DNA from: Deltaproteobacteria bacterium
GTDB lineage: Bacteria; Desulfobacterota; Desulfovibrionia; Desulfovibrionales; Desulfovibrionaceae
Assembly (NCBI GenBank): GCA_009929215.1
Contig: SAAX01000025.1
Location: forward strand, 1-34,703
Length of the DNA: 34,703 nt
Reading direction: 5' to 3'
The position numbers were made by a program, and so were the translations under genes. Below the pieces are notes generated by a model. That model was not told where the DNA came from. It was given only the letters and a program-made list of their open reading frames with translations, and did not search any database. This document shows positions 9,341 to 22,247 of the stretch, piece by piece (position 1 is the stretch's first letter; each line of letters starts with the position of its first letter).

Positions 9341-9374
9341 GGCTATGCCCATGCTGCGGGCTTGCCTCTTTTTT
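9341..9374 (+). terminator. Probable terminator of the MFS transporter gene
   Basis: An imperfect stem (GGC and GCCC pairing with GGGC and GCC, offset by a small internal loop) is followed by TCTTTTTT, about 20 bases after the stop codon. Confidence 0.55.
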
Positions 9375-9427
9375 CCTACGGTTGTAGGCTAGTGGATAAA
9401 GATATTTTTCCAAGCCACGAGGAATAC

Positions 9428-10174
9428 ATGGCAAGCCAGAAGTCCCCCAAAGAATCAGCAGAATCCACATCGGCAGCCAAGCCAGCCGATGCCAAATCCA
9501 CCAGCGCACAAACCTTGCAGGCCGCTTCAGAAGCTGCCTCGCAGGCAGAACAGCAAAAAGGCCTCAGCAAGGTCAGCAAGGGCGTTTTTTTTGTAGGTGT
9601 TGCTCTGGCCCTTGTGCTGGGCATCTATGTGGGCAGCCTTGTACCCTCCATGTTTGGGCCAGAACCTGCACCGCAGGCCCCGGCCCAGCAGACCGCGCAG
9701 CCCCAATCCCAGGCCCCTGCACAGGCAAAGCAGGACAACCAGCCACCCATTCCACCCGAGCTGACGGCCAAGATCGCAGCCATGGAGCAAAACGTTCTGT
9801 CTGATCCCAAGAATGCGCAAAACTGGGCAGAGCTGGGCAACCTCTATTTTGACACCGGCCAGTCGCGCAAGGCTGCCAGCGCCTACGAGCGTTCGCTTAC
9901 CCTTGCCCCCGACAATGCCGATGTGCTCACCGACCTTGGCATCATGTACCGCGAGCTTGGCGAATTCGACAAGGCCGTGGTCAATTTTCGCCGCGCCTCA
10001 AGTGTGAATCCCCGGCACGAAAACGCCATGTTCAACGAAGGCGTGGTGCTTTACTTTGACCTCAAGCGCAAGGACGACGCCATGAAAGCATGGCAGCGCC
10101 TGTTGGCGGTCAACCCCGGCGCACGCGCCCCCGATGGGCAGAGCGTTTCGGATGTGATTAAAAATTTGCGTTAG
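9428..10174 (+). CDS. Membrane-anchored TPR-repeat protein
   Basis: The product has 248 residues. A charged, Ala/Ser/Lys-rich cytoplasmic stretch (residues 1-50) is followed by one membrane helix (VFFVGVALALVLGIYVGSLV, about 53-72). A Pro/Gln/Ala-rich linker (about 76-110) leads to about three tetratricopeptide repeats (NWAELGNLYFDTGQSRKAAS, DVLTDLGIMYRELGEFDKAV, AMFNEGVVLYFDLKRKDDAM). This is the layout of CcmI/NrfG-like assembly factors, although no cytochrome biogenesis genes are adjacent. The repeats probably face the periplasm and bind a partner protein. A GAGG site five bases before the ATG fixes the start. It may be co-transcribed with the giant sensor-like gene 123 bases downstream. 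Confidence 0.8.
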   Translation: MASQKSPKESAESTSAAKPADAKSTSAQTLQAASEAASQAEQQKGLSKVSKGVFFVGVALALVLGIYVGSLVPSMFGPEPAPQAPAQQTAQPQSQAPAQAKQDNQPPIPPELTAKIAAMEQNVLSDPKNAQNWAELGNLYFDTGQSRKAASAYERSLTLAPDNADVLTDLGIMYRELGEFDKAVVNFRRASSVNPRHENAMFNEGVVLYFDLKRKDDAMKAWQRLLAVNPGARAPDGQSVSDVIKNLR

Positions 10175-10297: not shown

Positions 10298-13200
10298 ATG
10301 ATTGTCTTTTTCTCCGGCATGTCACGTGCCGTACTGCGCGTGTGCGCTCTATTTCTGTGCATTTTCTGCGCAAGTTTCGGCGCACCTTTCACAGCGCACA
10401 GTGGCATGATTCCGCCCGAGCTGCGCACGCCCAACGTGTCGCTGCTGCCCGACCTGCAATACTTTATCGATGTTACAGGAACCATGGATGTGGAGGAGGC
10501 AGCGGCCCCCGCCAATAGCCAGATGTTCAAGCCCCTCAACGTCAAGGCCCTACCCCGGCTTGCCGGTGTAATGTGGCTGCGCTTTACCTTGGCCCCCCTG
10601 CCTGCCGGTGGGCGCTCACAGGCCATACTGCTGGACATGGGGCCGGATGTTCCTGCTGATCCCGTCCTGTATCAACCCTCTCCCAGCCCCATTGCCGACA
10701 GCATCGAATGGCGCGAGATTCAGCCCACCCAACGCAATGTTCTGCTGCTGCCCGAGCCCGGGACAGAGGCCATTACCTGCTATATTCGCCTTGACGGTCT
10801 GCCCGGCATCTGGTTTTCGCCCACCCTGCGCACCCCCCAGGACGCTGCCACCAACTGGGGCAGCCTTTCTGGCACTGCGGCCCTACTGGCCCTTGGCGTT
10901 GTTATGCTGTTGTGCCTGTTGCGCGGCCTTTCTGAAAGAGGCCAGTGGCGCGTGTGGACAGCCCTGTATGTGGGCGTGGCCCTGATTCAGGGCACGCTTG
11001 GCATGCCCGCCTACGGCACGGGGCACATAACGCTCAATCAGTCCATGGCTGTGCTTGCGCCCGGCCTGGCCCTCATGCTGCTGCCCCATGTGGGGCGTCA
11101 CCTCATGCGCACACGGGGCCGCGCGCCCCTGCTCGACGCGCAGTTTGTGCTGCTTTCGCTGCCTGGCGCGGCACTGGCACTGCTGCCGCTTTTGCCCGGA
11201 TTTGGCTGGAGCATACGCTATCTTTCGCTTTGGCCCGCCTGCACCCTCATCTTTACGCTGAGCGCCCTTGGCGGCGCCATCATGGGTCTTGGCGGCGCAC
11301 GCCGCTTTTTGCTGGGTTGTCTTGTGCCCCCCCTGTTTGTGGCGGCGGGCATCATGGGCCTTGATTACGGCTACGCGGCAAACCTGCTGGCCTCTGCACC
11401 CCTGTGGGGCACAGCCCTGAGCGCCCTGCTTATTGCCGGAACCGGCCTGCCCCGCGATGCGGCCCAGGCCGATACCGCCAAGGCTGATGCGCAAAAGGCA
11501 GAGCCCGTCAAGGACAAAAAACGCGAATCCTCACCCGCAAAAAGGAACATTGCGGGGCTGGATGCCGCCTTGGTGAGCTCTGGCCTTGGCGACAGCCCCA
11601 TCACTTTGGACGCCCCGCTGGACGACCCCAATTTGCGCCTGCTGCCGCCCTCTGCGGCGGGCAAGACTGCCGCAGATTTTTCTGCCCTGCCCGTGGATAT
11701 TTCAGACAATGCCGACCCCGCGCCCTTTGCAGCGCGCGCCCCCAAGCAGGGTGCTGCCGCCGCCAGCGTGAGCCCCGGCATGTGGGAAAACCTGCTGCGT
11801 CCGCCGCTCGACCGCCTCATACGCGAGGGCGCGGCCCTGGGACACTGCTCGCTGCCGCCCGCCGTGCGCCAGTATGCGGAAAACATGATCAACGCTGCGG
11901 GCGACCTTGCCAAGATTCTCGACAATCCCGGAGAAATGCAGGAACAAAGCGGCGTTGGCGAACAGCGCGCGCCCTTCAACCTGCAACACCTCGTGCGCGA
12001 AGCCCACGATGCCGTGACCACTGCGGCGGAAAATGCCGGCATTGGCCTTGCGTGGTACATGCCTCCGCTGCTTGGGCACATGTATGAAGGACAGGCCCGC
12101 GCCCTGCGCGAAACCCTGAGTCTGCTGCTCGAAAGTGCCGTGCGCGCCACCTCGCGCGGTGCGGTGCACCTTTCTGTGCGGCGCGTGCCCGAAACCGCCG
12201 ACCCCGGCCACCTGCTCTTTACCGTAACTGACTCTGGCGCTGGCATTCCGCCTCGCGACAGGTCTACGCTGGCCCTCACCCGCGCGTGGGAGCTGGCCGG
12301 TTCCAACAACGGCTACCTCAATGTGGAATGCGGCCCGCAAGGAACATCCATTGCCTTTACCTTGCGCCTCAACCCCCTTGAAAATGCGGCAGATGCCGAC
12401 AAGGCTGCAGCTCAGGCCCGCGGCCCGCACATTGCGGTAGTGGCAGAAAGCGCCGTTGACCGTCAGGCCCTTGCCCACATGATCACCAACCTTGGCTGCA
12501 ACAGCACAGAATCGCGCAGCATGCGCGAGGCCCTGCAATGCAACCGCGAGGCCCCGGCCCTTATGCTTGTGGTGCAGTACCCGCACCACGGCCCTGCCGA
12601 GGCCGACGCCCTTGGGCGCTTTGAGGCTGAGGCGCTGGAAACAGGCCTGCCCGTGTTCAAGGCTCTGGCCATCACCAAGGACGACAAGCAGTGGGAGGCC
12701 CTGGCTGAAACCGGTTACACCCACGCTCTGCTCGACCCGGTGGATGCAGAAGCCTTTGCCGCAACCCTGAACGAAGTGCTCACCGAGGGCGGATTTTTGG
12801 GCGACAGCCCTGCCAGCCCCACGGCAGAAGGCACAGTTGCGCCCGTAATGCCCGACCAGGCCGAAATGGCCCTGGCAGCAGCCGCTGTGGAATCAGCTGT
12901 TGCTGGTTTTGGCCCAGAAGCCCAAGCAGAGGCAGGGGGCACTCCGCCGCAGCAACCCGTGGAGCTCACCCTTGACGCGCCCGCAGCCGAAGCGGCAGCT
13001 GCTGCCCCGCTGCGTATGGATGCCCCCGCCCAAGCGCCCACGCCCAACGATCTGCCCGATCTTTTTGGCGATGATGCGCCCACACAGGGTTCGCTGCTGC
13101 CCGATCTGCCACAGCATGACCATGCCGTGGACGCACCCGCTCCTGAAGTTCAGATGCCCCTGCCCCATGAGGAACCGCTTTCGTTCGGTACGCAGCAACC

Positions 13201-15217
13201 TGCCATGCCCCGCGAGACAATGGATGCAGACCCGCAGGGCAGCATGCTGCTACCGCTCATGGACGATGCCCCGCAGGATAATGACCCGCAAAATGATGGA
13301 CAAGACCCCATCGAACTTACAGAGCTTTTGCCGGAAAAAGGCATGTCCGGCGAAACGGACCAGCTGCTTCCTTCCATGACAGAAAGAGCCGAACCCGTAT
13401 TGCCCGAAATTCTGACGGAAGCCACACCAGCCGCCGAAGCTGATGCCCTGCCCGAAGTGCAGGTGGACATGGCCGAGGCTTCCACAACCGAGCCGCTTGA
13501 GCCTGAAACCATTGCTGAAACCGCCCCTGCCAACTCCCCCGAGGCCGCAGCACAGCCCACCTCGGCTGTCGACGAGTTTATGGCCTCGGCAGGCCTTGAA
13601 GGCCCCCACTGGGCCGCAGAAGATACTGTGGCGGCAACGGAAACGGCCAGCCCCGCCACAGCGACAGAATCGACTGCAATCACAAGTGAAACTGCGGATG
13701 ATGGCGTGCTTGCTGCAAGCGCAGGGGGGGAGGGCAGCACTCCAGATGCGGCCCAAGGCACAGCATTTGAGCCCCTTGAATGGCCTGCAGCGGCCCAAAC
13801 GGAGATGGCCCAAGGCGAGCCCGCATCCACCGATTCTGTCCAGCCTGAACCCGCACTGTCCGAGCCGGTACTGTCCGAACCCGCGCAGTCTGGCGATCAT
13901 GCAATCAATGACAAGGCCAGGGTAACCCCCGCCGAATTTATTGAAGCCTCATTTCCCGCAGAAGAATCTTTTGCGGAACCAGCTACTGAGGCCGTAGAAG
14001 CGTTGGCTGCCCCAGTTGAAGACGTGCTGACAGCCCACGATATCACGCCACTCAGATCCATGAGTGACCGGGTTGGTGAAGCCACCCTTACGCCTGTCAA
14101 TGCGGCAACAAACTTTAGGGAAGGCTTTGCAGATACTGCCGAAGCCAACGCCACGGGCAAAGGCAACGGCTTTGACGTGCCCGCCCCCGCTGGCAGAGGC
14201 GCATGGGACAACTACAGCCTGCAAGAAGAATGGGTGGGCGAACCCATGCCCATTGGCACGCCCGTACCCACGGCGCGCATGGCTGCTCCTGTGCAGGGCA
14301 CGGCCCCAGCAGCACCGCAGGCGCCCGAATCTGCTGTCACATCCACTTTTGCACGGCAGGAGAAAAAATCCTACGTGAGCCCCAGCCTTGCGCACCCCGG
14401 CGAATGGGTGGGCGAGCCCATGCCCATGACCAAGCCTGCCAAGCAGGAGGAGCCCGCCGCAACCCAACAGCCCGCCGAGGCGCAGCCCGATGACCGCCGC
14501 AACCGCCCGGTAGAGATGCCCCGTACCGCTACGGGCAGGATGATTCTCAAGCTGCTGGGCAGCGCTGGCGACAGGCCGCTGGATGCGGACAAAACCCCGC
14601 CCCCCAGCGGCAATCCCGACCTTTTGGCTGATCTTGCTGCCATGCCCGAACAGGATTCAGTGTCTGCCCCTGCACCTGCTGCCACAGCCGAAACGCGCCG
14701 TGGGGCCACGGCCCTCAAGCCCAGCGGCAAGGGCAATTCCATTATGAACTTTATTGCCGGAGCGGCAGAGGCCCTGCGCCATACAGATCACACCGACGTG
14801 TCCCAGCCTTCCCCGAAGGTTGAGCCCAATAAGGCCGCAGAAGCTCCTTTTACCGCTTCACAGCCCGCCGAGGCATCACAGGCAGCCTCGCCCGCTTCCG
14901 TGCCTCCTGCGGCCCTTGTGGCCCCAAATGCACCGCGCGAAACTGACCAGACAATTCCCCAGCTTGTGGCGCGGCTCGACGCCGCCATGGACGATGCCCA
15001 GCAAGGCTTCAAAAACCGCCGCTGCGCTGTGGTGGGCGATGCGGCCAACCGCATTGCCACCGAGTCCGATGCCTTTGGCTTCCGCGTGTTGGCCCGCATG
15101 GCCCGCTGTGTGGAGCGCGCCGCCAAGGCCAACGACATGAACGCCCTGCGCGACCTTTTGCCAGAGCTGGCCGTGGCGGTTGAACGCAACCGCATCGGCC
15201 TGACACCACGCCGCTAA
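10298..15217 (+). CDS. Giant 7TMR-DISM hybrid-kinase-like protein with degenerate HisKA, receiver and HPt domains
   Basis: The 1639-residue protein has a signal peptide (1-30), a periplasmic domain (37-185) and seven membrane helices (about 194-384), the 7TMR-DISM layout. A linker follows, then HisKA-like (495-543), HATPase-like (560-690), receiver-like (710-828), a long Ala/Pro/Glu-rich, probably disordered tract (840-1540) and an HPt-like bundle at the C-terminus. By hand alignment NLLRPPL replaces HEIRTPL (His to Asn498). The N-box Asn is Ser613, while DSGAG (645-649) is kept. The receiver acidic pair is Ala716-Glu717, the phospho-Asp is Val758 and the Lys is Asp813. NRIAT replaces the HPt HxLKG (His to Asn1584). 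EWVGEPMP occurs twice in the tract. A GGCGGA site precedes the ATG. It is probably a phosphorelay-like scaffold without phosphotransfer; its ligand and partners are unknown. Confidence 0.8.
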   Translation: MIVFFSGMSRAVLRVCALFLCIFCASFGAPFTAHSGMIPPELRTPNVSLLPDLQYFIDVTGTMDVEEAAAPANSQMFKPLNVKALPRLAGVMWLRFTLAPLPAGGRSQAILLDMGPDVPADPVLYQPSPSPIADSIEWREIQPTQRNVLLLPEPGTEAITCYIRLDGLPGIWFSPTLRTPQDAATNWGSLSGTAALLALGVVMLLCLLRGLSERGQWRVWTALYVGVALIQGTLGMPAYGTGHITLNQSMAVLAPGLALMLLPHVGRHLMRTRGRAPLLDAQFVLLSLPGAALALLPLLPGFGWSIRYLSLWPACTLIFTLSALGGAIMGLGGARRFLLGCLVPPLFVAAGIMGLDYGYAANLLASAPLWGTALSALLIAGTGLPRDAAQADTAKADAQKAEPVKDKKRESSPAKRNIAGLDAALVSSGLGDSPITLDAPLDDPNLRLLPPSAAGKTAADFSALPVDISDNADPAPFAARAPKQGAAAASVSPGMWENLLRPPLDRLIREGAALGHCSLPPAVRQYAENMINAAGDLAKILDNPGEMQEQSGVGEQRAPFNLQHLVREAHDAVTTAAENAGIGLAWYMPPLLGHMYEGQARALRETLSLLLESAVRATSRGAVHLSVRRVPETADPGHLLFTVTDSGAGIPPRDRSTLALTRAWELAGSNNGYLNVECGPQGTSIAFTLRLNPLENAADADKAAAQARGPHIAVVAESAVDRQALAHMITNLGCNSTESRSMREALQCNREAPALMLVVQYPHHGPAEADALGRFEAEALETGLPVFKALAITKDDKQWEALAETGYTHALLDPVDAEAFAATLNEVLTEGGFLGDSPASPTAEGTVAPVMPDQAEMALAAAAVESAVAGFGPEAQAEAGGTPPQQPVELTLDAPAAEAAAAAPLRMDAPAQAPTPNDLPDLFGDDAPTQGSLLPDLPQHDHAVDAPAPEVQMPLPHEEPLSFGTQQPAMPRETMDADPQGSMLLPLMDDAPQDNDPQNDGQDPIELTELLPEKGMSGETDQLLPSMTERAEPVLPEILTEATPAAEADALPEVQVDMAEASTTEPLEPETIAETAPANSPEAAAQPTSAVDEFMASAGLEGPHWAAEDTVAATETASPATATESTAITSETADDGVLAASAGGEGSTPDAAQGTAFEPLEWPAAAQTEMAQGEPASTDSVQPEPALSEPVLSEPAQSGDHAINDKARVTPAEFIEASFPAEESFAEPATEAVEALAAPVEDVLTAHDITPLRSMSDRVGEATLTPVNAATNFREGFADTAEANATGKGNGFDVPAPAGRGAWDNYSLQEEWVGEPMPIGTPVPTARMAAPVQGTAPAAPQAPESAVTSTFARQEKKSYVSPSLAHPGEWVGEPMPMTKPAKQEEPAATQQPAEAQPDDRRNRPVEMPRTATGRMILKLLGSAGDRPLDADKTPPPSGNPDLLADLAAMPEQDSVSAPAPAATAETRRGATALKPSGKGNSIMNFIAGAAEALRHTDHTDVSQPSPKVEPNKAAEAPFTASQPAEASQAASPASVPPAALVAPNAPRETDQTIPQLVARLDAAMDDAQQGFKNRRCAVVGDAANRIATESDAFGFRVLARMARCVERAAKANDMNALRDLLPELAVAVERNRIGLTPRR
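14228..14425 (+). repeat. Two copies of an EWVGEPMP peptide motif inside the giant gene
   Basis: Copies at 14228-14251 and 14402-14425 encode the same eight residues, 58 codons apart, in otherwise low-complexity sequence. Each is the only tryptophan-containing spot nearby. The DNA differs at one base (GAA versus GAG codon). They look like a conserved short binding motif in a disordered chain. Confidence 0.6.
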
Positions 15218-15257: not shown

Positions 15258-15680
15258 ATGTACAAGACAGTTCTTATTCCTGTGAGCGGCAAAAATGGCC
15301 TCGTTCGCGCAAAAGCTGCCCTGACCCATGCCCGCAGACTCTCCTGCGGGGAAATCGTTCTTCTGCATGTTTTTGAGCCCCTGCCCCAAATTGTGGGCGG
15401 CGAGGCCCATGCCGAACTGCTGGCAGAACAGAAGGCCAAGGGGCAGACCCTGCTCAACACCGTCATGGCCGATTTTGACATGGCGGGTAAGCAGGTTCGC
15501 TGCCGCGTGGACGAAGGTACCACGGCAGAAACCATTATCCGCGTCGCGCATGAGGAAAATGCAGACCTCATCGTCATGTTCACCGATGGCCGCGACGGCT
15601 TGCAGGACATACTGCTGGGCTCTGTAACCGAACGCGTGTTGCGCAATACCGATACTGCCCTACTGGTAATACGCCGCTAG
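15258..15680 (+). CDS. Universal stress protein, UspA family
   Basis: This 140-residue protein forms a single Usp domain with a Rossmann-like fold. It opens YKTVLIPVSGKNG, and the nucleotide loop near the end reads TDGRDGLQDILLGSVTERVLRNT. The usual ATP-binding pattern is G-x2-G-x9-G-S/T; here GRDG followed by GSVTERV fits it closely. Usp proteins are cytoplasmic dimers that bind ATP or act as stress-linked adaptors. An AAGGG site lies about seven bases before the ATG. It starts only 40 bases after the giant sensor-like gene, so it is probably in the same operon and may act in the same response. Confidence 0.88.
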   Translation: MYKTVLIPVSGKNGLVRAKAALTHARRLSCGEIVLLHVFEPLPQIVGGEAHAELLAEQKAKGQTLLNTVMADFDMAGKQVRCRVDEGTTAETIIRVAHEENADLIVMFTDGRDGLQDILLGSVTERVLRNTDTALLVIRR

Positions 15681-15775
15681 GGCGACACCAGAATGGCTCT
15701 GTGGGGCCACCAGGGGCGTGCCACGCCTGTAACTGTGCGCACCTCTCGTTGGAGCGTACCCACTGTGGGGCAGAA

Positions 15776-17191
15776 ATGCTGCTTTTTCTTGAGACTGTAG
15801 GGCTGTTGGTTGCCCACATCCTGTCGTGGGTCGCTGTGTGCCACGCGCTGCTTACCAAGCATGATCCGCGTGCTGCCTTGGGCTGGACAGTAACGGCCCT
15901 TTTTCTGCCGGTTCTTGGGCCCCTGCTGTATGCCTGTTTTGGCATCAGCAGGGCCGAAAGCCGGGCCAGCCGCATCATGCGGCGGCAGCAGCCTTTGGAG
16001 CCAGATTACGCGCATCCGCCTTTTTCAAAAATCCCGCCAGAAAACATCCCAGACAGCATCGCCCGCATGGAGCACATTGGCCGTGTGCTTGCCGAGCAGC
16101 ACCTGAGCAGCGGCAACAGCATACGCCTGCTGCACAACGGCGATCAGGCCTACCCGGCCATGATAGCGGCCATCGACAAGGCCAGGGATCATGTTTTTCT
16201 TTGCACCTACATATTCAATGCGGGTGAGGTGGCCACGGCCTTTGGCGAGGCCATGGCCCGCGCTGCGGAACGCGGCGTGGACGTGCGCCTGCTGGTAGAC
16301 GGCATAGGCATGCTCTACTCGCTGCGCAAGCCGTGGAAAAAGCTTGCAAAACGCGGCGTTCAGGTGGCCCAGTTCATGCCGCCGCGCCTGTTTCCGCCCA
16401 ATTTCAGCATCAATTTGCGCAACCACCGCAAAATGCTGGTGTGCGACAGTGTGGCCTTTACCGGCGGCATGAACATAGCCGACGACAATCTGGCCGCAGG
16501 CAAAACCAAGTATGTGCAGGACATGCACTTTATGTGCGAGGGCCCCATTGTAGACCAACTGCGCCGGGCCTTTTTGCTCAACTGGGGTTTCTGCACCAAC
16601 AGCTACACCCCTCTGCCGCCCACAACCACCCTGCCGCGCGGCGACAGCCGCTGCCGCATCATCATGGACGGCCCCGGCTCAGAGGCCGACATACTCAACG
16701 ACATCTACTGCGCCATCATCAATGCGGCCCGGCGCTCGGTGCGCATCATGACGCCCTATTTTCTGCCTTCGCACGGCCTTGTTTCGGCCCTGCGCTCGGC
16801 TGGTCAGCGCGGGGTGGACGTGCGCATAGTGCTGCCCGCCAAGAACAACCTTTTCTATGTGCACTGGGCGCAATACCGCCTGCTGCCCACCCTGCTGCAA
16901 GCGGGCGTGCGCGTGTGGTATCAGCCGCCGCCCTTTGCCCACACCAAACTGCTGGCCGTGGACGGCTACTATTGCCAGATAGGCTCTGCCAATCTGGACG
17001 CGCGCAGCCTGCGGCTGAATTTTGAGCTCAACATGGAAGTGTTCAACCCCGACGTGCACGACCAGATCACCGCCCACATCGACAGGGCCATCATCATGGG
17101 CAAGGAAATCACCGCCAAAGAACTGGCCGCCCTGCCCCTGCTCATAAGACTGCGTAACGCCGCCTGTTGGATCTTTTCGCCCTATCTGTAG
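15776..17191 (+). CDS. cls: Cardiolipin synthase (phospholipase D family)
   Basis: This 471-residue inner-membrane enzyme joins two phosphatidylglycerols into cardiolipin. It has two N-terminal membrane helices (about 1-26 and 38-58) and two PLD domains with HKD motifs: HRKMLVCDSVAFTGGMN in the middle and HTKLLAVDGYYCQIGSANLD near the C-terminus, each H-x-K-x4-D. The ATG at 15776 puts the first helix at the N-terminus, as usual. Its ribosome site is weak, and the in-frame GTG at 15701 would add 25 non-hydrophobic residues. It follows the UspA gene by 95 bases and ends before a large hairpin at 17207. Confidence 0.9.
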   Translation: MLLFLETVGLLVAHILSWVAVCHALLTKHDPRAALGWTVTALFLPVLGPLLYACFGISRAESRASRIMRRQQPLEPDYAHPPFSKIPPENIPDSIARMEHIGRVLAEQHLSSGNSIRLLHNGDQAYPAMIAAIDKARDHVFLCTYIFNAGEVATAFGEAMARAAERGVDVRLLVDGIGMLYSLRKPWKKLAKRGVQVAQFMPPRLFPPNFSINLRNHRKMLVCDSVAFTGGMNIADDNLAAGKTKYVQDMHFMCEGPIVDQLRRAFLLNWGFCTNSYTPLPPTTTLPRGDSRCRIIMDGPGSEADILNDIYCAIINAARRSVRIMTPYFLPSHGLVSALRSAGQRGVDVRIVLPAKNNLFYVHWAQYRLLPTLLQAGVRVWYQPPPFAHTKLLAVDGYYCQIGSANLDARSLRLNFELNMEVFNPDVHDQITAHIDRAIIMGKEITAKELAALPLLIRLRNAACWIFSPYL

Positions 17192-17283: not shown

Positions 17284-17970
17284 TTAGCCGAATACCCGCA
17301 CTATTTCCTTGGCGTCCATTTCGGGCGTGATGGGCTTGAGTGCCAGACGGCAGAAGTCGTCGGGCCTGTCCATGTCGAGCTTGAGGTCGGGGCGGCGCAG
17401 CCAGTCTTCCTCTGGATCAAACGTGCCTATTTTAAAACTGGCGGCGTTATCCCAAATGTAGTTGAGGCAGTGCTCGCGCTGCGAGGTTTGGGTGGCCTTG
17501 GCGTCCAGCTCGTCCAGCAGATCACGCGACAGTATCTCTGCCCCCAGGCCGTCGGGCCACAGGTTGTTGCGCGGAATGTGGTTGTAGGCATAGTCCCAGC
17601 CGCCTTGGTCGTAAAAATCCACCAGCCGGTCAACGGCCCCGCCCCAGATAAGCGGGTTGTCGGCGCACACGCGCACCACGCGCCCGGCATCGGCCTTGCG
17701 CGCGGCCAGACAAAACCGGGCCAGCACGTCGTCTTCCGACCCTGCCACGCAGGGCACGCCGCGTCTTTTCAGGTGATCGAGCAGCACGAGGTCAAGGGGC
17801 GTGTCGGGCACGGCCACCATGATGCCGTCGAGCCTTGCCGCCTGCCCAAGCCGCCGCGTAACCCAATCGATAACGGGCACATCGCGCAGACAGAGCAGCG
17901 ATTTCATGGGAAGCCGCGTGGAGCCGAGGCGGGCCTGAATAATGGCTATAACCTTGCCGGTCTTGGGCAT
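17284..17970 (-). CDS. SpsF-like cytidylyltransferase (CMP-sugar synthetase family)
   Basis: This 228-residue protein has the nucleotidyltransferase opening IIQARLGSTRLPMKSL. The R-x-GSTRLP-x-K pattern of the SpsF/KdsB-related family binds the nucleotide. Later ARVVRVCADNPLI holds the conserved metal-binding aspartate. Such enzymes activate 2-keto sugar acids with CTP. It is the last gene of the four-gene minus-strand cassette, 49 bases after the fusion gene, with an AAGGA site before its ATG. In this context it is the best candidate for making the CMP-sugar. The substrate is inferred from the kdnA/kdnB-like neighbours, not seen. Confidence 0.75.
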   Translation of the reverse strand: MPKTGKVIAIIQARLGSTRLPMKSLLCLRDVPVIDWVTRRLGQAARLDGIMVAVPDTPLDLVLLDHLKRRGVPCVAGSEDDVLARFCLAARKADAGRVVRVCADNPLIWGGAVDRLVDFYDQGGWDYAYNHIPRNNLWPDGLGAEILSRDLLDELDAKATQTSQREHCLNYIWDNAASFKIGTFDPEEDWLRRPDLKLDMDRPDDFCRLALKPITPEMDAKEIVRVFG

Positions 17971-18019
17971 GGGCGATCCTTTCTGACTGTTGAACGTGAA
18001 ACTGTTGAGCGTTGTGCGG

Positions 18020-19684
18020 TTACGGCGCGGCAGATTCCGCCTGTGGACTGGCGCCTTCTTGCAGAATGTTCTGCATCAGGCCCACCACACGCGCCTTGTT
18101 GGCCGTAAAATTAAGGGTATTCTGCCTGTCCCAGAAGCGTTGACGCCGGGCATTTTTGAGCATGGCCAGAAAAACATTGCGGATCTTGGCGTCGCTCACC
18201 CTGTCCATGATGCCCACAAAGGCAAAGCCATTGCGGGGGCGGGCAAAGGTGTGGCGCGCCTCGCGCTCGTGGTGGGCCAGCACCATTGAGGGAATACGCA
18301 TGTGGGCCAGCTCGTACACCGTGCGTCCGGCAGAGCAGATGGCAAGGTCGGCCCCTTCCATCATGCGGCTCATGACATTGGTGGCCCAGGTAAACTGCAC
18401 GAGCGGGTTGTCCAGCCTGGCAAGGTGCGCTTCCATGGCGTCCTTGTGTGCATAGCCCGGCCCGGCCACAAGGCGTATGCCAATGCCGTAGGCGCGGCAG
18501 ATGGGCTCGATAATGTCGAGCACCCGGCGTGAACAGTCGTTGAGGTCTGTGCCGCCAAAGGTGATGAGCACGCTCTTCATCTCTGGCCGAAAGGGATTGC
18601 GGGCCGCGCCCAAAAATTCGTCGCGCAGGCAAAAGTAGTCTGGCCCGTAGCACAGGCGCTCGTTGCTGTCCCTGTCTTCGTACAGGGCGTTGACCACCAG
18701 CCGCGCCCAGTCTGCGCCGGGGCCTTCGTCCTCAAAATTCACGCAGCGCACGCCCGCCGTGGTCAGGCGCGCCATGTAGGCCGAGGTGGTGTTGAGAATA
18801 TCGTTGATCACCAGATCGGGCCGCATGCGCAGCACCGTGTCTGCCAGATCCTCGTTGCCCTGACGCACGATCTTGTAATCCTTGCGGGCAATGCTTTCTA
18901 CGGCCAGCTCGCTCTCGCGCGTGCACACAAAGCTGACCTTGTGGTTGGTGATCTCGTGGGCCAGCATGAGCGCGCGAAACACATGCCCCATGCCGATGGC
19001 GGGCCAGCCAGCCACCACAAAGACCACATGCCGCCGCTGCAACAGGTGCTCGCAGATCCACCAGTCCTGATAACCCTGAATTTCAATGGCCCTGTCGTTG
19101 AGAAAGTAGGGCACGATCTTGCCGCGCCCCAGGGTATGGCCGTTGCCCTTTTCCAGCAGGGCCATGCGCAGGATGATGAGCGCGCGGCTTTCAACCACCA
19201 TGGTTTTTTCGCTGTCTTCGCCAGCGCCTTCGTCCAACAGGCTTTCCAGACCTTCGCCCTGCACGTTCCAGATGCGCTGGCGCATGCTTTTGACCGTCAC
19301 AAGGCTGTCGGCATGCGCATCGCGGTAGCGCTTCCAGGCGTCTTCCACGTCCACCCAGGTCAGCAGGGGGCACGAGGCCCGCAAAATCATGCAGTGTTCG
19401 TAGTCGCGCGCAAGCTCGGTGAGCAGACCGCGCATTTCGGTAACAATATCAAGGCTTGTAAAGCGCAGATCCCTGTTCCAATGGTGGCGCACGCCCGCAC
19501 GTTCGCAGATAAGTGCAATTTCCTGGCTGTCGGTCAGCACCATGATGTCATCACCGGGCAGCACGCTGCGCGCGGTGTTGATGGCCCTTTCCACAAGCGT
19601 GACCCCGGCCAGCTTTTTTACCAGCTGATCAGGAATAACGGCATTCTTTTTGATGGCAGGTATGACGATGCAGCGTTCTTTCAC
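18020..19684 (-). CDS. Two-domain protein: nucleotidyltransferase-like domain fused to PseG-like GT-B domain
   Basis: The 554 residues form two parts. Residues 1-220 resemble the NeuA/CMP-sugar synthetase fold (IVIPAIKKN at the start, then MVLTDSQEIALICERAG, ILRASCPLLTWVDVEDAW). However, the usual PARGGSKxxPxKN nucleotide loop is rewritten as PAIKKNAVIPDQLVKK, losing the Arg and Ser. Residues 221-540 resemble PseG/GT-B UDP-sugar hydrolases or transferases: VVAGWPAIGMGHVFRAL carries the GMGH-x-x-R catalytic-His motif, and ITFGGTDLND and GADLAICSAGRTVYEL form the nucleotide-binding half. The start codon is GTG at 19684 with a weak ribosome site. It may transfer or process the cassette's sugar; the first domain may be catalytically dead. 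Confidence 0.72.
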   Translation of the reverse strand: MKERCIVIPAIKKNAVIPDQLVKKLAGVTLVERAINTARSVLPGDDIMVLTDSQEIALICERAGVRHHWNRDLRFTSLDIVTEMRGLLTELARDYEHCMILRASCPLLTWVDVEDAWKRYRDAHADSLVTVKSMRQRIWNVQGEGLESLLDEGAGEDSEKTMVVESRALIILRMALLEKGNGHTLGRGKIVPYFLNDRAIEIQGYQDWWICEHLLQRRHVVFVVAGWPAIGMGHVFRALMLAHEITNHKVSFVCTRESELAVESIARKDYKIVRQGNEDLADTVLRMRPDLVINDILNTTSAYMARLTTAGVRCVNFEDEGPGADWARLVVNALYEDRDSNERLCYGPDYFCLRDEFLGAARNPFRPEMKSVLITFGGTDLNDCSRRVLDIIEPICRAYGIGIRLVAGPGYAHKDAMEAHLARLDNPLVQFTWATNVMSRMMEGADLAICSAGRTVYELAHMRIPSMVLAHHEREARHTFARPRNGFAFVGIMDRVSDAKIRNVFLAMLKNARRQRFWDRQNTLNFTANKARVVGLMQNILQEGASPQAESAAP

Positions 19685-19780
19685 GTTTTGTTCTCTGCTG
19701 TGCGGAAAGGGAACAGGCGGTACACAAGCCCCCGGGGTGCATCAGCAATGCCGACGCAGCCCGGGGGCGGAACAGGTGCT

Positions 19781-20968
19781 CTAGCGCAGGCTGGCCAGAA
19801 CCTCGCGGGTGGAGGCCAGCATGTAGTCAAATTCTTCCCCGCTCAGCCAGTGCTGGAAGGGGAAGGAAATCATGGAATCAAAGAAGGTGTCGGCATTGGG
19901 GCAGTTGGCCGTGCCCATGCCGAGGCGGCGGTAGTAGTCGTAGCGGTCCAGCGGAATATACTGCACCACGCACTTCACGCCTTTTTCGTTGAACATGGCC
20001 CGTATAAAGCGGTCGCGCGCTTCAACGCCCGTGGTCATGCGTGCGGCCAGCAGGTGGTAGTTGTGGCGGGGTGAATCTACGCGGTGAAATTCCAGCTCGG
20101 GAAAATCGGCCAGAGCGTCGATGAAGCGAATGGCGCGGGCGCGCTTTTCGTCATTGATGCTGTCGATGCGCTCAAGCAGCTTGGCCCCAAGGGCACATTC
20201 CACTTCGCCAAGGCAGTAGTTGTTGGGTTGCAGGGGCTCACCGTCCAGCATGGGCAGGTCAACATTGCCCATGGCGGGCTTCCAGTAGTCGGGCCGCTCA
20301 TAGTCAAAGCCGCAGTGGCCGTTGTGGCGCAGGGTGGGCACAAGGGCCGCCAGCTTGGGGTCGCGCACATAGAGCATGCCGCCCTCGCCCAAGGTGGTGA
20401 GGTTCTTGTGCGAGTGGAACGAAAAAATGGCCATGTCGCCAAAGCTGCCAGCCTTTTTGCCGTCAACCACAGAGCCGATGGCCTGGGCCGCGTCTTCGAT
20501 AAGGATCAGGCCGCGTTTCTTGCACAGGGCGGCAATGCCGACCATGTCGGCCACATAGCCGTACAGGTGCACCACCACAACGGCCCTGGTGCGGGGCGTA
20601 ATGGCTTTTTCGATGGTTTCGGCAGTGACAACCCGGGTCAGCAGGTCTACATCTGCCCAGGCCATTGTGGCGCCTTTTTTGATGTAGGGGTAGGCCGAGG
20701 CCGTGAAGGTGTGCGAGGGCATGACCACTTCGTCACCGGGCTTGAAGCGGCACAGCTGGGCAGAAAGCTCCAAGGCCGAAACGCCGTTCATGGTCACAAA
20801 GCAGCTGCCAGGGGCCACGCCCTGATAGGCGGCAAACTTGCTTTCAAAATCGCGCATGTGCACGCCCTGGGTGAGCGTGTCGGCATTGCGCATGACATCC
20901 ACAACCACCGCAATTTCTTCTTCCGTATAGCGTATGGCACGGCCACTGAAATTTACTTTAATGTCCAT
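19781..20968 (-). CDS. kdnA: DegT/DnrJ family sugar aminotransferase, KdnA-like
   Basis: This 395-residue PLP enzyme has the DegT family layout. The phosphate-binding region is MNGVSALELSAQ, the ring-stacking and aspartate region LILIEDAAQAIGS, and the PLP lysine lies in FSFHSHKNLTTLGEGG. KdnA converts 8-oxo-Kdo to 8-amino-3,8-dideoxy-Kdo in Shewanella, where it sits beside kdnB; here a KdnB-like gene also lies directly upstream. The ATG at 20968 has an AAGGAG site seven bases upstream; the frame beyond is not conserved. Another DegT sugar aminotransferase role is possible, but the pairing makes KdnA the best name. Confidence 0.75.
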   Translation of the reverse strand: MDIKVNFSGRAIRYTEEEIAVVVDVMRNADTLTQGVHMRDFESKFAAYQGVAPGSCFVTMNGVSALELSAQLCRFKPGDEVVMPSHTFTASAYPYIKKGATMAWADVDLLTRVVTAETIEKAITPRTRAVVVVHLYGYVADMVGIAALCKKRGLILIEDAAQAIGSVVDGKKAGSFGDMAIFSFHSHKNLTTLGEGGMLYVRDPKLAALVPTLRHNGHCGFDYERPDYWKPAMGNVDLPMLDGEPLQPNNYCLGEVECALGAKLLERIDSINDEKRARAIRFIDALADFPELEFHRVDSPRHNYHLLAARMTTGVEARDRFIRAMFNEKGVKCVVQYIPLDRYDYYRRLGMGTANCPNADTFFDSMISFPFQHWLSGEEFDYMLASTREVLASLR

Positions 20969-21064
20969 GCGGACTCCTTGTGGCAAATGCGCCGCCGGAA
21001 AGCCCGGCGGCGCACAATATTCGGTTATCACTCCAGGCGCGTGCGCTCGTGGCGCAGCGGCCTG

Positions 21065-22144
21065 TTACATGCGCAGGAAGCGCTCGATAACGTTTTCCTT
21101 GGTGAGGATCTTTTTGAAATCCGGGCCAAGGCGGTTGGAAAGCGGCTTTTCGTGCACAATGCTGGCGCCGTAAAGGGCATCGTACTGCGCATCGGTCAGG
21201 CCCTGGCAGATGCCCTTGGGCAGGTCAATGCCCTGGCGATCCATCATGAGCATAAAGTCTTTGTATTCGTCGGGGTAGATGTCTTCAAGCACGGTAAGGG
21301 CGTAGCAGTTGGCAATGCCGTGGTGCATATGCAGCACCATGCTGAGGCCCGCAGAAATGGGGTGCACAACACCCACAAAACCCGCAGCCATACCGCCAAG
21401 GAAGGAGGCGATCATGAGCTTTTCGCGGTTTTCATCGCTCATCATGTCGCTGGAAAGGTAGACCTGCTTGCTGAGGTCAATGGCCTTTTCGGCCAGCGAA
21501 TCGACCACCACGTTGCGGTAAGAGCCGGTGATGCTCTCAAAGCAGTGCATGTAGGTATCGATACCCGTGTAAAAATACTGGTTGCGCGGCACGCTGGCGG
21601 TGAGGTCGGGGTCGAGCAACACCTGTTCAAACATGGTGTAGTCGCTGTTCATACCCAGCTTGATGTTCTTGGCCTCGTTGCAGATGATGCCCGTGCGCGA
21701 GGTTTCTGAACCCGTGCCCGAAAGGGTGGGTACAGCGATTTTGTAGGGGGCGGGATTTTTGACCAGTTCCCAGCCCTGATAGTTTTCAGCCTTGCCGGGG
21801 TTGTTCAGCAGGTTGCCCACGCACTTGCATGTATCAAGCACACAGCCGCCGCCAAAGGCCAGCAGAGCGCAGGGAGTAGCGCCGCCAAGAAAGGCCTTGA
21901 CCTGATCGGTGTAGCCGTCCACGCTGTCAGTGGTGGGTTCGTCTGTGGTGTCCACATAGAGCACCATGTCCTTGTTTTCCACCGGCAGCTTGGCAAGCAG
22001 ATCCTTGCCTTCAAAAAATTTGTCCACAAAAAACACGGCGGGGCCATTTACGGCGGCGCGACGCGCGCCGAGCAAATCGCCAAGCTGGGTAAGACTACCC
22101 GAACCAATCATATAATAACCGACATTTTTCGCGTTGCGATACAT
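21065..22144 (-). CDS. kdnB: Iron-containing alcohol dehydrogenase, KdnB-like (Kdo 8-oxidase)
   Basis: The product has 359 residues of the iron-dependent alcohol dehydrogenase family. The NAD loop is FGGGCVLDTCKCVGN, followed by VPTLSGTGSETSRT. Likely metal ligands are in GIDTYMHCFE (D-x3-H), VVHPISAGL and MHHGIANC. YQGWELVKNPAP, LGMNSDYTMFEQVLLDPDL and YFYTGIDTYMHC closely follow what I remember of Shewanella KdnB, which oxidises C8 of Kdo before transamination by KdnA. It heads the four-gene cassette, with a GAGAGG site upstream and a 21-bp palindrome about 100 bases before the ATG at 22144. A generic alcohol dehydrogenase is the alternative. Confidence 0.75.
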   Translation of the reverse strand: MYRNAKNVGYYMIGSGSLTQLGDLLGARRAAVNGPAVFFVDKFFEGKDLLAKLPVENKDMVLYVDTTDEPTTDSVDGYTDQVKAFLGGATPCALLAFGGGCVLDTCKCVGNLLNNPGKAENYQGWELVKNPAPYKIAVPTLSGTGSETSRTGIICNEAKNIKLGMNSDYTMFEQVLLDPDLTASVPRNQYFYTGIDTYMHCFESITGSYRNVVVDSLAEKAIDLSKQVYLSSDMMSDENREKLMIASFLGGMAAGFVGVVHPISAGLSMVLHMHHGIANCYALTVLEDIYPDEYKDFMLMMDRQGIDLPKGICQGLTDAQYDALYGASIVHEKPLSNRLGPDFKKILTKENVIERFLRM

Positions 22145-22247
22145 AGTTGCCCTCTCAATAATGGCAGATGATGACCGGGCCATACGCTATAGCCAAACGT
22201 CTGGCAAGATGCCCTGCAATGGGCCAGCGGCGCGGATTTTCGCCTCT

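Follow-up and report, generated by a model that had tools for sequence, protein, structure and literature searches.

A membrane receptor with the predicted folds of a hybrid histidine kinase and none of its phosphotransfer residues

Introduction

RcsD is a membrane protein with an inactive, kinase-like body, and its HPt domain passes phosphate. RetS of Pseudomonas aeruginosa is not known to have an HPt-like C-terminus or a long arm, DivL is not known to have a receiver or an HPt domain, and the output of ChiS is not known to proceed by phosphorelay. RetS is described as controlling another kinase, GacS, through a DHp-DHp heterodimer (PMC12148439), and as acting on the phosphate groups of GacS as well (PMC12189002). 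In DivL of Caulobacter, the histidine-kinase fold is reported to be re-used without kinase activity; the N, G1, F and G2 boxes are kept, Tyr stands in the place of His, PAS domains are present, and some relatives are described as having no DHp-CA part (PMC4211667). ChiS of Vibrio has been called a noncanonical hybrid histidine kinase and ends in a DNA-binding domain (PMC8092284).

The window, by which the whole analyzed stretch of 34,703 nucleotides is meant, is carried by a 3.1-Mb genome of the Desulfovibrionaceae. A sequence-only reading had proposed that one of its genes encodes a hybrid architecture in which all phosphotransfer residues are replaced. This was confirmed here by site alignments across the protein family and by predicted folds.

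Materials and methods

The core alignment comprised 46 same-genus rows (the window protein included) and 25 rows from outside the genus. Loci L011, L022, L031, L032 and L093 were left out, as were L063, L067-L069 and L105, which are without a full core. The HPt alignment comprised 69 rows, 47 of them same-genus; L011, L022, L031, L033, L034, L048, L074, L093, L099, L100, L102 and L106 were omitted owing to a C-terminus out of frame, a cut sequence or duplication. L031 is a duplicate of L045 on the same contig, and L093 was taken as a duplicate of L033. For loci L117-L136, sites were assigned from sequence patterns and visual inspection; these loci stand outside the site tallies of 46, 25, 47 and 69 rows. 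Values of dN/dS were calculated by the Nei-Gojobori method using our own script, with L094, L095 and L096 as near relatives.

Results

The gene and its parts are the following.

10298..15217, + strand: complete receptor gene (hybrid-kinase-like, phospho-dead; 1639 aa)
10448..10795, + strand: periplasmic 7TMR-DISMED2-like sensor, residues 51-166; sub-threshold Pfam match, E 0.003
10856..11443, + strand: multi-pass membrane region of residues 187-382, with hydrophobicity rising >1.5 in six peaks
11768..11947, + strand: DHp/HisKA-like two-helix region, residues 491-550; Asn498 for His (codon 11789-11791)
11963..12388, + strand: CA/HATPase-like domain, residues 556-697
12134-12136, + strand: N-box Ser613, in the CA/HATPase-like domain
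12230-12244, + strand: DSGAG (645-649), kept, in the CA/HATPase-like domain
12262/12263, + strand: point of ATP-lid loss, after Arg655, in the CA/HATPase-like domain
12422..12793, + strand: receiver-like domain, residues 709-832; Thr793 kept
12443-12448, + strand: Ala716-Glu717, at the receiver acidic pair
12575-12577, + strand: Gln760, at the receiver Asp site
12734-12736, + strand: Asp813, at the receiver Lys site
12794..14932, + strand: Ala/Pro/Glu-rich arm, residues 833-1545; disorder read from composition
13052..13069, + strand: PDLFG linear motif (LPDLFG, residues 919-924)
14231..14251, + strand: first WVGEPMP linear motif, residues 1312-1318
14405..14425, + strand: second WVGEPMP linear motif, residues 1370-1376
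14942..15214, + strand: His-less HPt-like four-helix domain, residues 1549-1639
15047-15049, + strand: Asn1584 at the HPt His site, aligned with the His of HptB

Pfam recognized only HATPase_c and a weak sensor domain in the window protein. The latter match, to 7TMR-DISMED2, scored 17.9 bits against a cut-off of 22, and 7TMR-DISM_7TM gave no Pfam match there. Orthologues L033 and L075 exceed the 7TMR-DISMED2 cut-off, and L033 also exceeds that of 7TMR-DISM_7TM. Among the NCBIfam models, residues 499-840 were matched by TorS (1.1e-15) and RcsD (9e-9, spanning residues 499-658), both far below their cut-offs. The top PDB sequence matches were GacS (3.4e-5) and RetS (3.9e-4).

Structure prediction returned DHp/CA, receiver and HPt folds in that order, as the sequence-only reading had it. 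RetS and GacS stood near the top when the predicted core was compared with known structures; confidence in the core model, which was built from four sequences, is moderate, and the matches are only a slight test of its DHp part. HPt domains led the structural matches of the C-terminus, 1sr2 (YojN, the HPt domain of RcsD) being the second VIA match. The family profile of the C-terminus found HptB among PDB sequences at 2.7e-4, but a designed protein came next at 2.8e-4. The sole phmmer matches of the L091 C-terminus in the PDB were haemoglobin chains, which were judged to be due to chance. A search of the same genome for a second copy of the HPt-like domain returned this gene and one weak match (E 0.23) only; other matches to the Hpt family numbered five over the cut-off, one of them in a 158-residue frame.

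Absent from the window protein are these features of an active hybrid kinase: the HisKA His, the N-box Asn, the ATP lid with G2, and the receiver acidic pair, Asp and Lys and the HPt His. The earlier placement of Asn498, Ser613, the Ala-Glu pair, Asp813 and Asn1584 at the phospho-sites, with DSGAG kept, was borne out by alignment; the receiver Asp, however, had been placed wrongly at Val758, and the aligned position is Gln760. About 20 residues, covering the F box and the ATP lid, are missing from the CA-like domain. The spacing between D645 and W664 is 16-21 residues in 69 rows (exactly 20 in 63) and 40 in L091 and L092; the lid is missing in 69 of the 71 core rows.

No same-genus row has His at the HisKA position (N in 14, D in 11, E in 6, a gap in 4 and other residues in 11 of the 46), and outside the genus His is found there in two of 25 rows, L091 and L092. 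The N-box position is Ser in 40 of the 46 and Asn in one. At receiver position 760, Gln and His occur in 16 rows each, Cys in six and other residues in eight, with no Asp; Asp stands there in 20 of the 25 rows outside the genus. The receiver Lys position is occupied by E (33), L (5), A (4), D (3) or K (1). The HPt His is absent from 68 of the 69 rows and from all 47 same-genus rows, which have G (12), N (6), E (6) or others (23). As a side observation, the one row with His at this site, L078 (G197, g41), sits on a long branch, and its receiver Asp is gone.

Much else in these domains is held. G647 of the G1 box is kept in 46/46 and D645 in 44/46 same-genus rows, receiver Thr793 and Pro814 are fixed in 45/46 rows each, and helix positions of the HPt-like domain, R1596 and R1600 among them, stay fixed. 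Within the HPt-like domain, few parts vary as much as the face around the His site: position 1584 exceeds 92% of the columns in variability and 1588 exceeds 89%. The expectation that the replacement residues would be conserved in orthologues failed, residue 498 being Asn in 14/46 rows and 1584 in 6/47. As judged from the alignments, the phospho-acceptor positions drift while much of their surroundings is held; the sites have been released, not fixed as Asn. The drifting His face of the HPt-like domain speaks against classical receiver docking there.

Orthologues were found in 76 of 79 sampled genomes of the same genus, Desulfovibrio, that of the window included, and family matches at E up to 1e-30 occur in 15 of the 44 genera of the bacterial family. 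Against L094, L095 and L096, respectively, dN/dS was 0.053, 0.205 and 0.071 for the HisKA-like part (0.05-0.21), 0.058, 0.096 and 0.063 for the HATPase-like domain (0.06-0.10), 0.039, 0.121 and 0.112 for the receiver-like domain (0.04-0.12), and 0.017, 0.007 and 0.015 for the HPt-like domain (0.007-0.017), the lowest of all domains in these comparisons; the arm gave 0.31, 0.26 and 0.30. In three farther relatives, dS was often saturated, and the usable values were 0.07-0.41 (0.07-0.18 for the four dead domains), with the HATPase-like value below that of the HPt-like domain in two of the three. Median column entropy over the genus was 1.31 for the HATPase-like, 1.50 for the HPt-like, 2.05 for the receiver-like and 2.10 for the HisKA-like part. 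The HPt-like domain cannot, in general, be called the best conserved part of the protein; this is true only of dN/dS against the three near relatives. The receptor is not decaying, because it is kept in 76/79 genomes and dN/dS in its dead domains is 0.007-0.21. On these codon comparisons, its predicted folds are kept by purifying selection, in line with the claim of selection, not decay, made from the sequence.

Other members of the family retain some of the sites. L091 and L092, of genus g35, keep all tested kinase and receiver features, and L117 and L118 of the same genus have the full kinase and receiver set by motif; the HPt His is absent from all four. In L119-L123 (g35), the HisKA His, N box and G2 are kept and the receiver Asp is lost; in L124 (g35), the DHp/CA motifs are absent. 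Eight rows outside the genus (g24, g23, L033, L034, one g41 and one g50) have every receiver feature but a dead kinase; L119-L123 thus show the opposite of what is seen in g24, g23 and L033. In a tree of the sensor and membrane part, for which the kinase domains were not used, g35 was sister to the rest (98/92) when rooted with L129, an ordinary hybrid kinase on a long branch; in a first tree, built without L129, g35 grouped with g20/g50, and a long-branch warning was raised. The simplest order of loss to read from these sequences would place the HPt His first; the kinase would then have been lost a single time, on the branch that leads to the remaining sampled genera, and the receiver several times.

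Whole domains are missing from certain relatives: CA from L067-L069 and L105, CA and receiver from L063, and DHp from L057-L059 and L107. Most of the domain-lacking relatives, L124 included, retain the sensor and the HPt-like end. The receptor frame is broken in L034, L099, L100 and L106. In L099 (G112), L100 (G106) and L106 (G114), which fall in two subclades, the HPt-like domain lies in another frame directly behind a poly-A run; these runs of nine, nine and ten A start 15, 15 and 39 bases, respectively, before the end of the main frame. Runs of at least nine A were found in these three alone among 80 frames; a run of ten C is present in L041. The arrangement may reflect either programmed slippage or an error of assembly.

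A WVGEPMP-like motif occurs in the arm in 41 of 78 receptor reading frames (within the genus, and leaving the window protein aside, in 29 of 50), a count made without the duplicates L031 and L093 and including L011 and L022, though these end before the arm. The exact DNA pattern for WVGEPMP had 19 matches in 12 of 41 genomes, and by coordinates all 19 lie inside the receptor gene; the reversed control pattern had no match in the same 41 genomes.

The neighboring genes of interest are the following.

9362..10174, + strand: upstream TPR gene; one hydrophobic segment, then TPR repeats
15258..15680, + strand: gene for a universal stress protein, present downstream of the receptor gene in 32/74 loci
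15701..17191, + strand: downstream phospholipase-D-like gene, found in 37/74 loci

In 62 of 74 loci, including those of g35, g24 and g44, a TPR gene precedes the receptor gene in the same orientation at a distance of 0-0.9 kb; some of the 12 loci without it end at contig edges. Of 20 further loci, 13 have it upstream as well, every one of the eight g35 loci included, and it adjoins active-looking receptor forms too. The hydrophobic segment sits in the N-terminal half of the TPR protein, whose TPR part is probably periplasmic, judging by eye from the translation. Neither the stress-protein gene nor the phospholipase-D-like gene was seen in g35 and g24 loci, and there was no two-component gene among the neighbors scanned by Pfam. 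Farther along the window, 17284-22183 on the - strand holds nucleotidyltransferase-like, DegT/DnrJ-type aminotransferase and iron-type dehydrogenase genes and resembles a surface-sugar set.

Discussion

The protein has lost its phosphate sites, whereas selection has preserved its predicted folds; it therefore probably signals by binding partners, not by passing phosphate. The explanation that we favor, and hold to be probable, is that of a 7TMR-DISM-type membrane receptor or scaffold in which a phosphorelay has been emptied of its chemistry, its folds have been kept, and output occurs by binding. Input would be periplasmic or in the membrane, perhaps together with the upstream TPR protein, and would shift the DHp/CA/receiver-like body in the cytoplasm to another conformation. 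Output would then be by protein binding: the former kinase and receiver, now dead, would offer surfaces for it, as would the linear motifs of the arm and the HPt-like domain that has lost its His. The receptor itself would pass no phosphate, and its partners may include true two-component proteins. Descent from an active hybrid histidine kinase is part of this reading and shares its standing as the probable case. The site losses, predicted folds, low dN/dS, stepwise loss, TPR neighbor and arm motif argue for it, as does the fact that the top fold matches include RetS, whose effect on GacS is exerted through DHp heterodimers. Against it stand the variable HPt His face, the dispensable domains, the broken frames, the moderate model and the long-branch rooting.

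A more detailed form can be offered tentatively. In such a “hollow phosphorelay”, the His-Asp-His steps would have been lost in turn, the body would have become a phosphate-free conformational relay with the former HPt domain as its output surface, the periplasmic TPR protein would provide the input, and the WVGEPMP repeats would be docking sites.

Two rivals are narrower versions of the receptor or scaffold explanation. The first, which we regard as possible but somewhat doubtful, is a competitor resembling RetS and AHP6; its DHp/CA and HPt-like modules, themselves dead, would attach to an active hybrid kinase or to the response regulators of that kinase and so block or titrate true phosphorelays, an idea already put forward in the sequence-only reading. 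It draws on the high rank of RetS and GacS among the core matches and of HPt domains among those of the C-terminus, on the five further Hpt-family matches in the genome, and on the description of AHP6 as a negative regulator, with a tea protein of the AHP6 clade that has no phosphorylatable His (PMC13206810). However, the HPt face that should touch a receiver is the one that drifts (1584 and 1588), the Pfam-scanned neighbors include no two-component gene, and several relatives without DHp or CA retain the rest.

The second, which we consider unlikely, is a cell-envelope scaffold unrelated to phosphorelays, the TPR, receptor, and stress and phospholipid genes forming a module and the old folds serving as docking blocks. 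The recurrence of the three neighbors (62/74, 32/74 and 37/74 loci) and the motif-bearing arm are consistent with this, and RgsP is described as a 7TMR-DISM protein with a role in growth and a degenerate GGDEF domain (PMC6107284). Gene neighborhood alone does not show function, however, and both downstream genes were unseen in g35 and g24.

Catalysis through residues outside the usual sites is very improbable: the DxGxG of the G1 box is kept (G647 and D645 as above), but the N-box Asn has become Ser in 40/46 same-genus rows and the lid is missing in 69/71 rows. Nucleotide binding, earlier put forward as a possibility, is likewise weakened because the N-box Asn and the ATP lid are both lost. 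Slow decay of a useless kinase, to which stepwise site loss, domains gone in some species and the four broken frames might point, is scarcely credible and was rejected on the selection estimates for all four dead domains, near and farther, and on retention in 76/79 same-genus genomes.

Histidine-type pseudo-kinases have been known singly, in DivL, RetS-like regulation and RcsD; the present family runs from a g35 relative in which every kinase and receiver site is present to proteins without a single phospho-site. Because the TPR gene accompanies receptors that look active as well as dead ones, the family offers natural controls. There is strong selection on a His-less HPt domain, and phosphate-free signalling by two-component folds becomes testable.

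Literature searches for 7TMR-DISM with Desulfovibrio, and a four-term search on RcsD, returned no match. Among the matches listed for Desulfovibrio with hybrid histidine kinase and with pseudokinase, the receptor was not found in titles or abstract openings, nor was any such protein among those listed for dead hybrid kinases. The earlier statement that no system of this kind has been described goes too far: none with all sites dead is among the matches listed, but RetS, DivL and RcsD each anticipate some of its features.

The receptor resembles RetS in its putative 7TMR-DISM-like input and its histidine-kinase-like region, and RetS is a top-ranked structural match of the core; it differs in having lost all sites and the ATP lid. 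As with DivL, parts of DHp-CA are missing in some relatives; the window protein, however, has Asn498 and not Tyr in place of His, and its N box and lid are lost. Like RcsD, it has a kinase-like body and a predicted C-terminal HPt fold, and it matches the RcsD model below the cut-off (9e-9); it differs in lacking the HPt His and in having a receiver-like domain between the two. The AHP6 type of plants has an HPt fold without the phospho-His (PMC13206810), and in the receptor such a fold is predicted and the His is missing; AHP6 is a plant protein described as inhibitory, whereas here the domain ends a membrane receptor and the site residue is unconserved. The C-terminus is HPt-like and not DNA-binding, unlike that of ChiS. 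By analogy, the mode of action that fits best would combine binding through the kinase region, as in RetS, use of the kinase fold as a sensor, as in DivL, and an inactive body joined to an HPt fold, as in RcsD.
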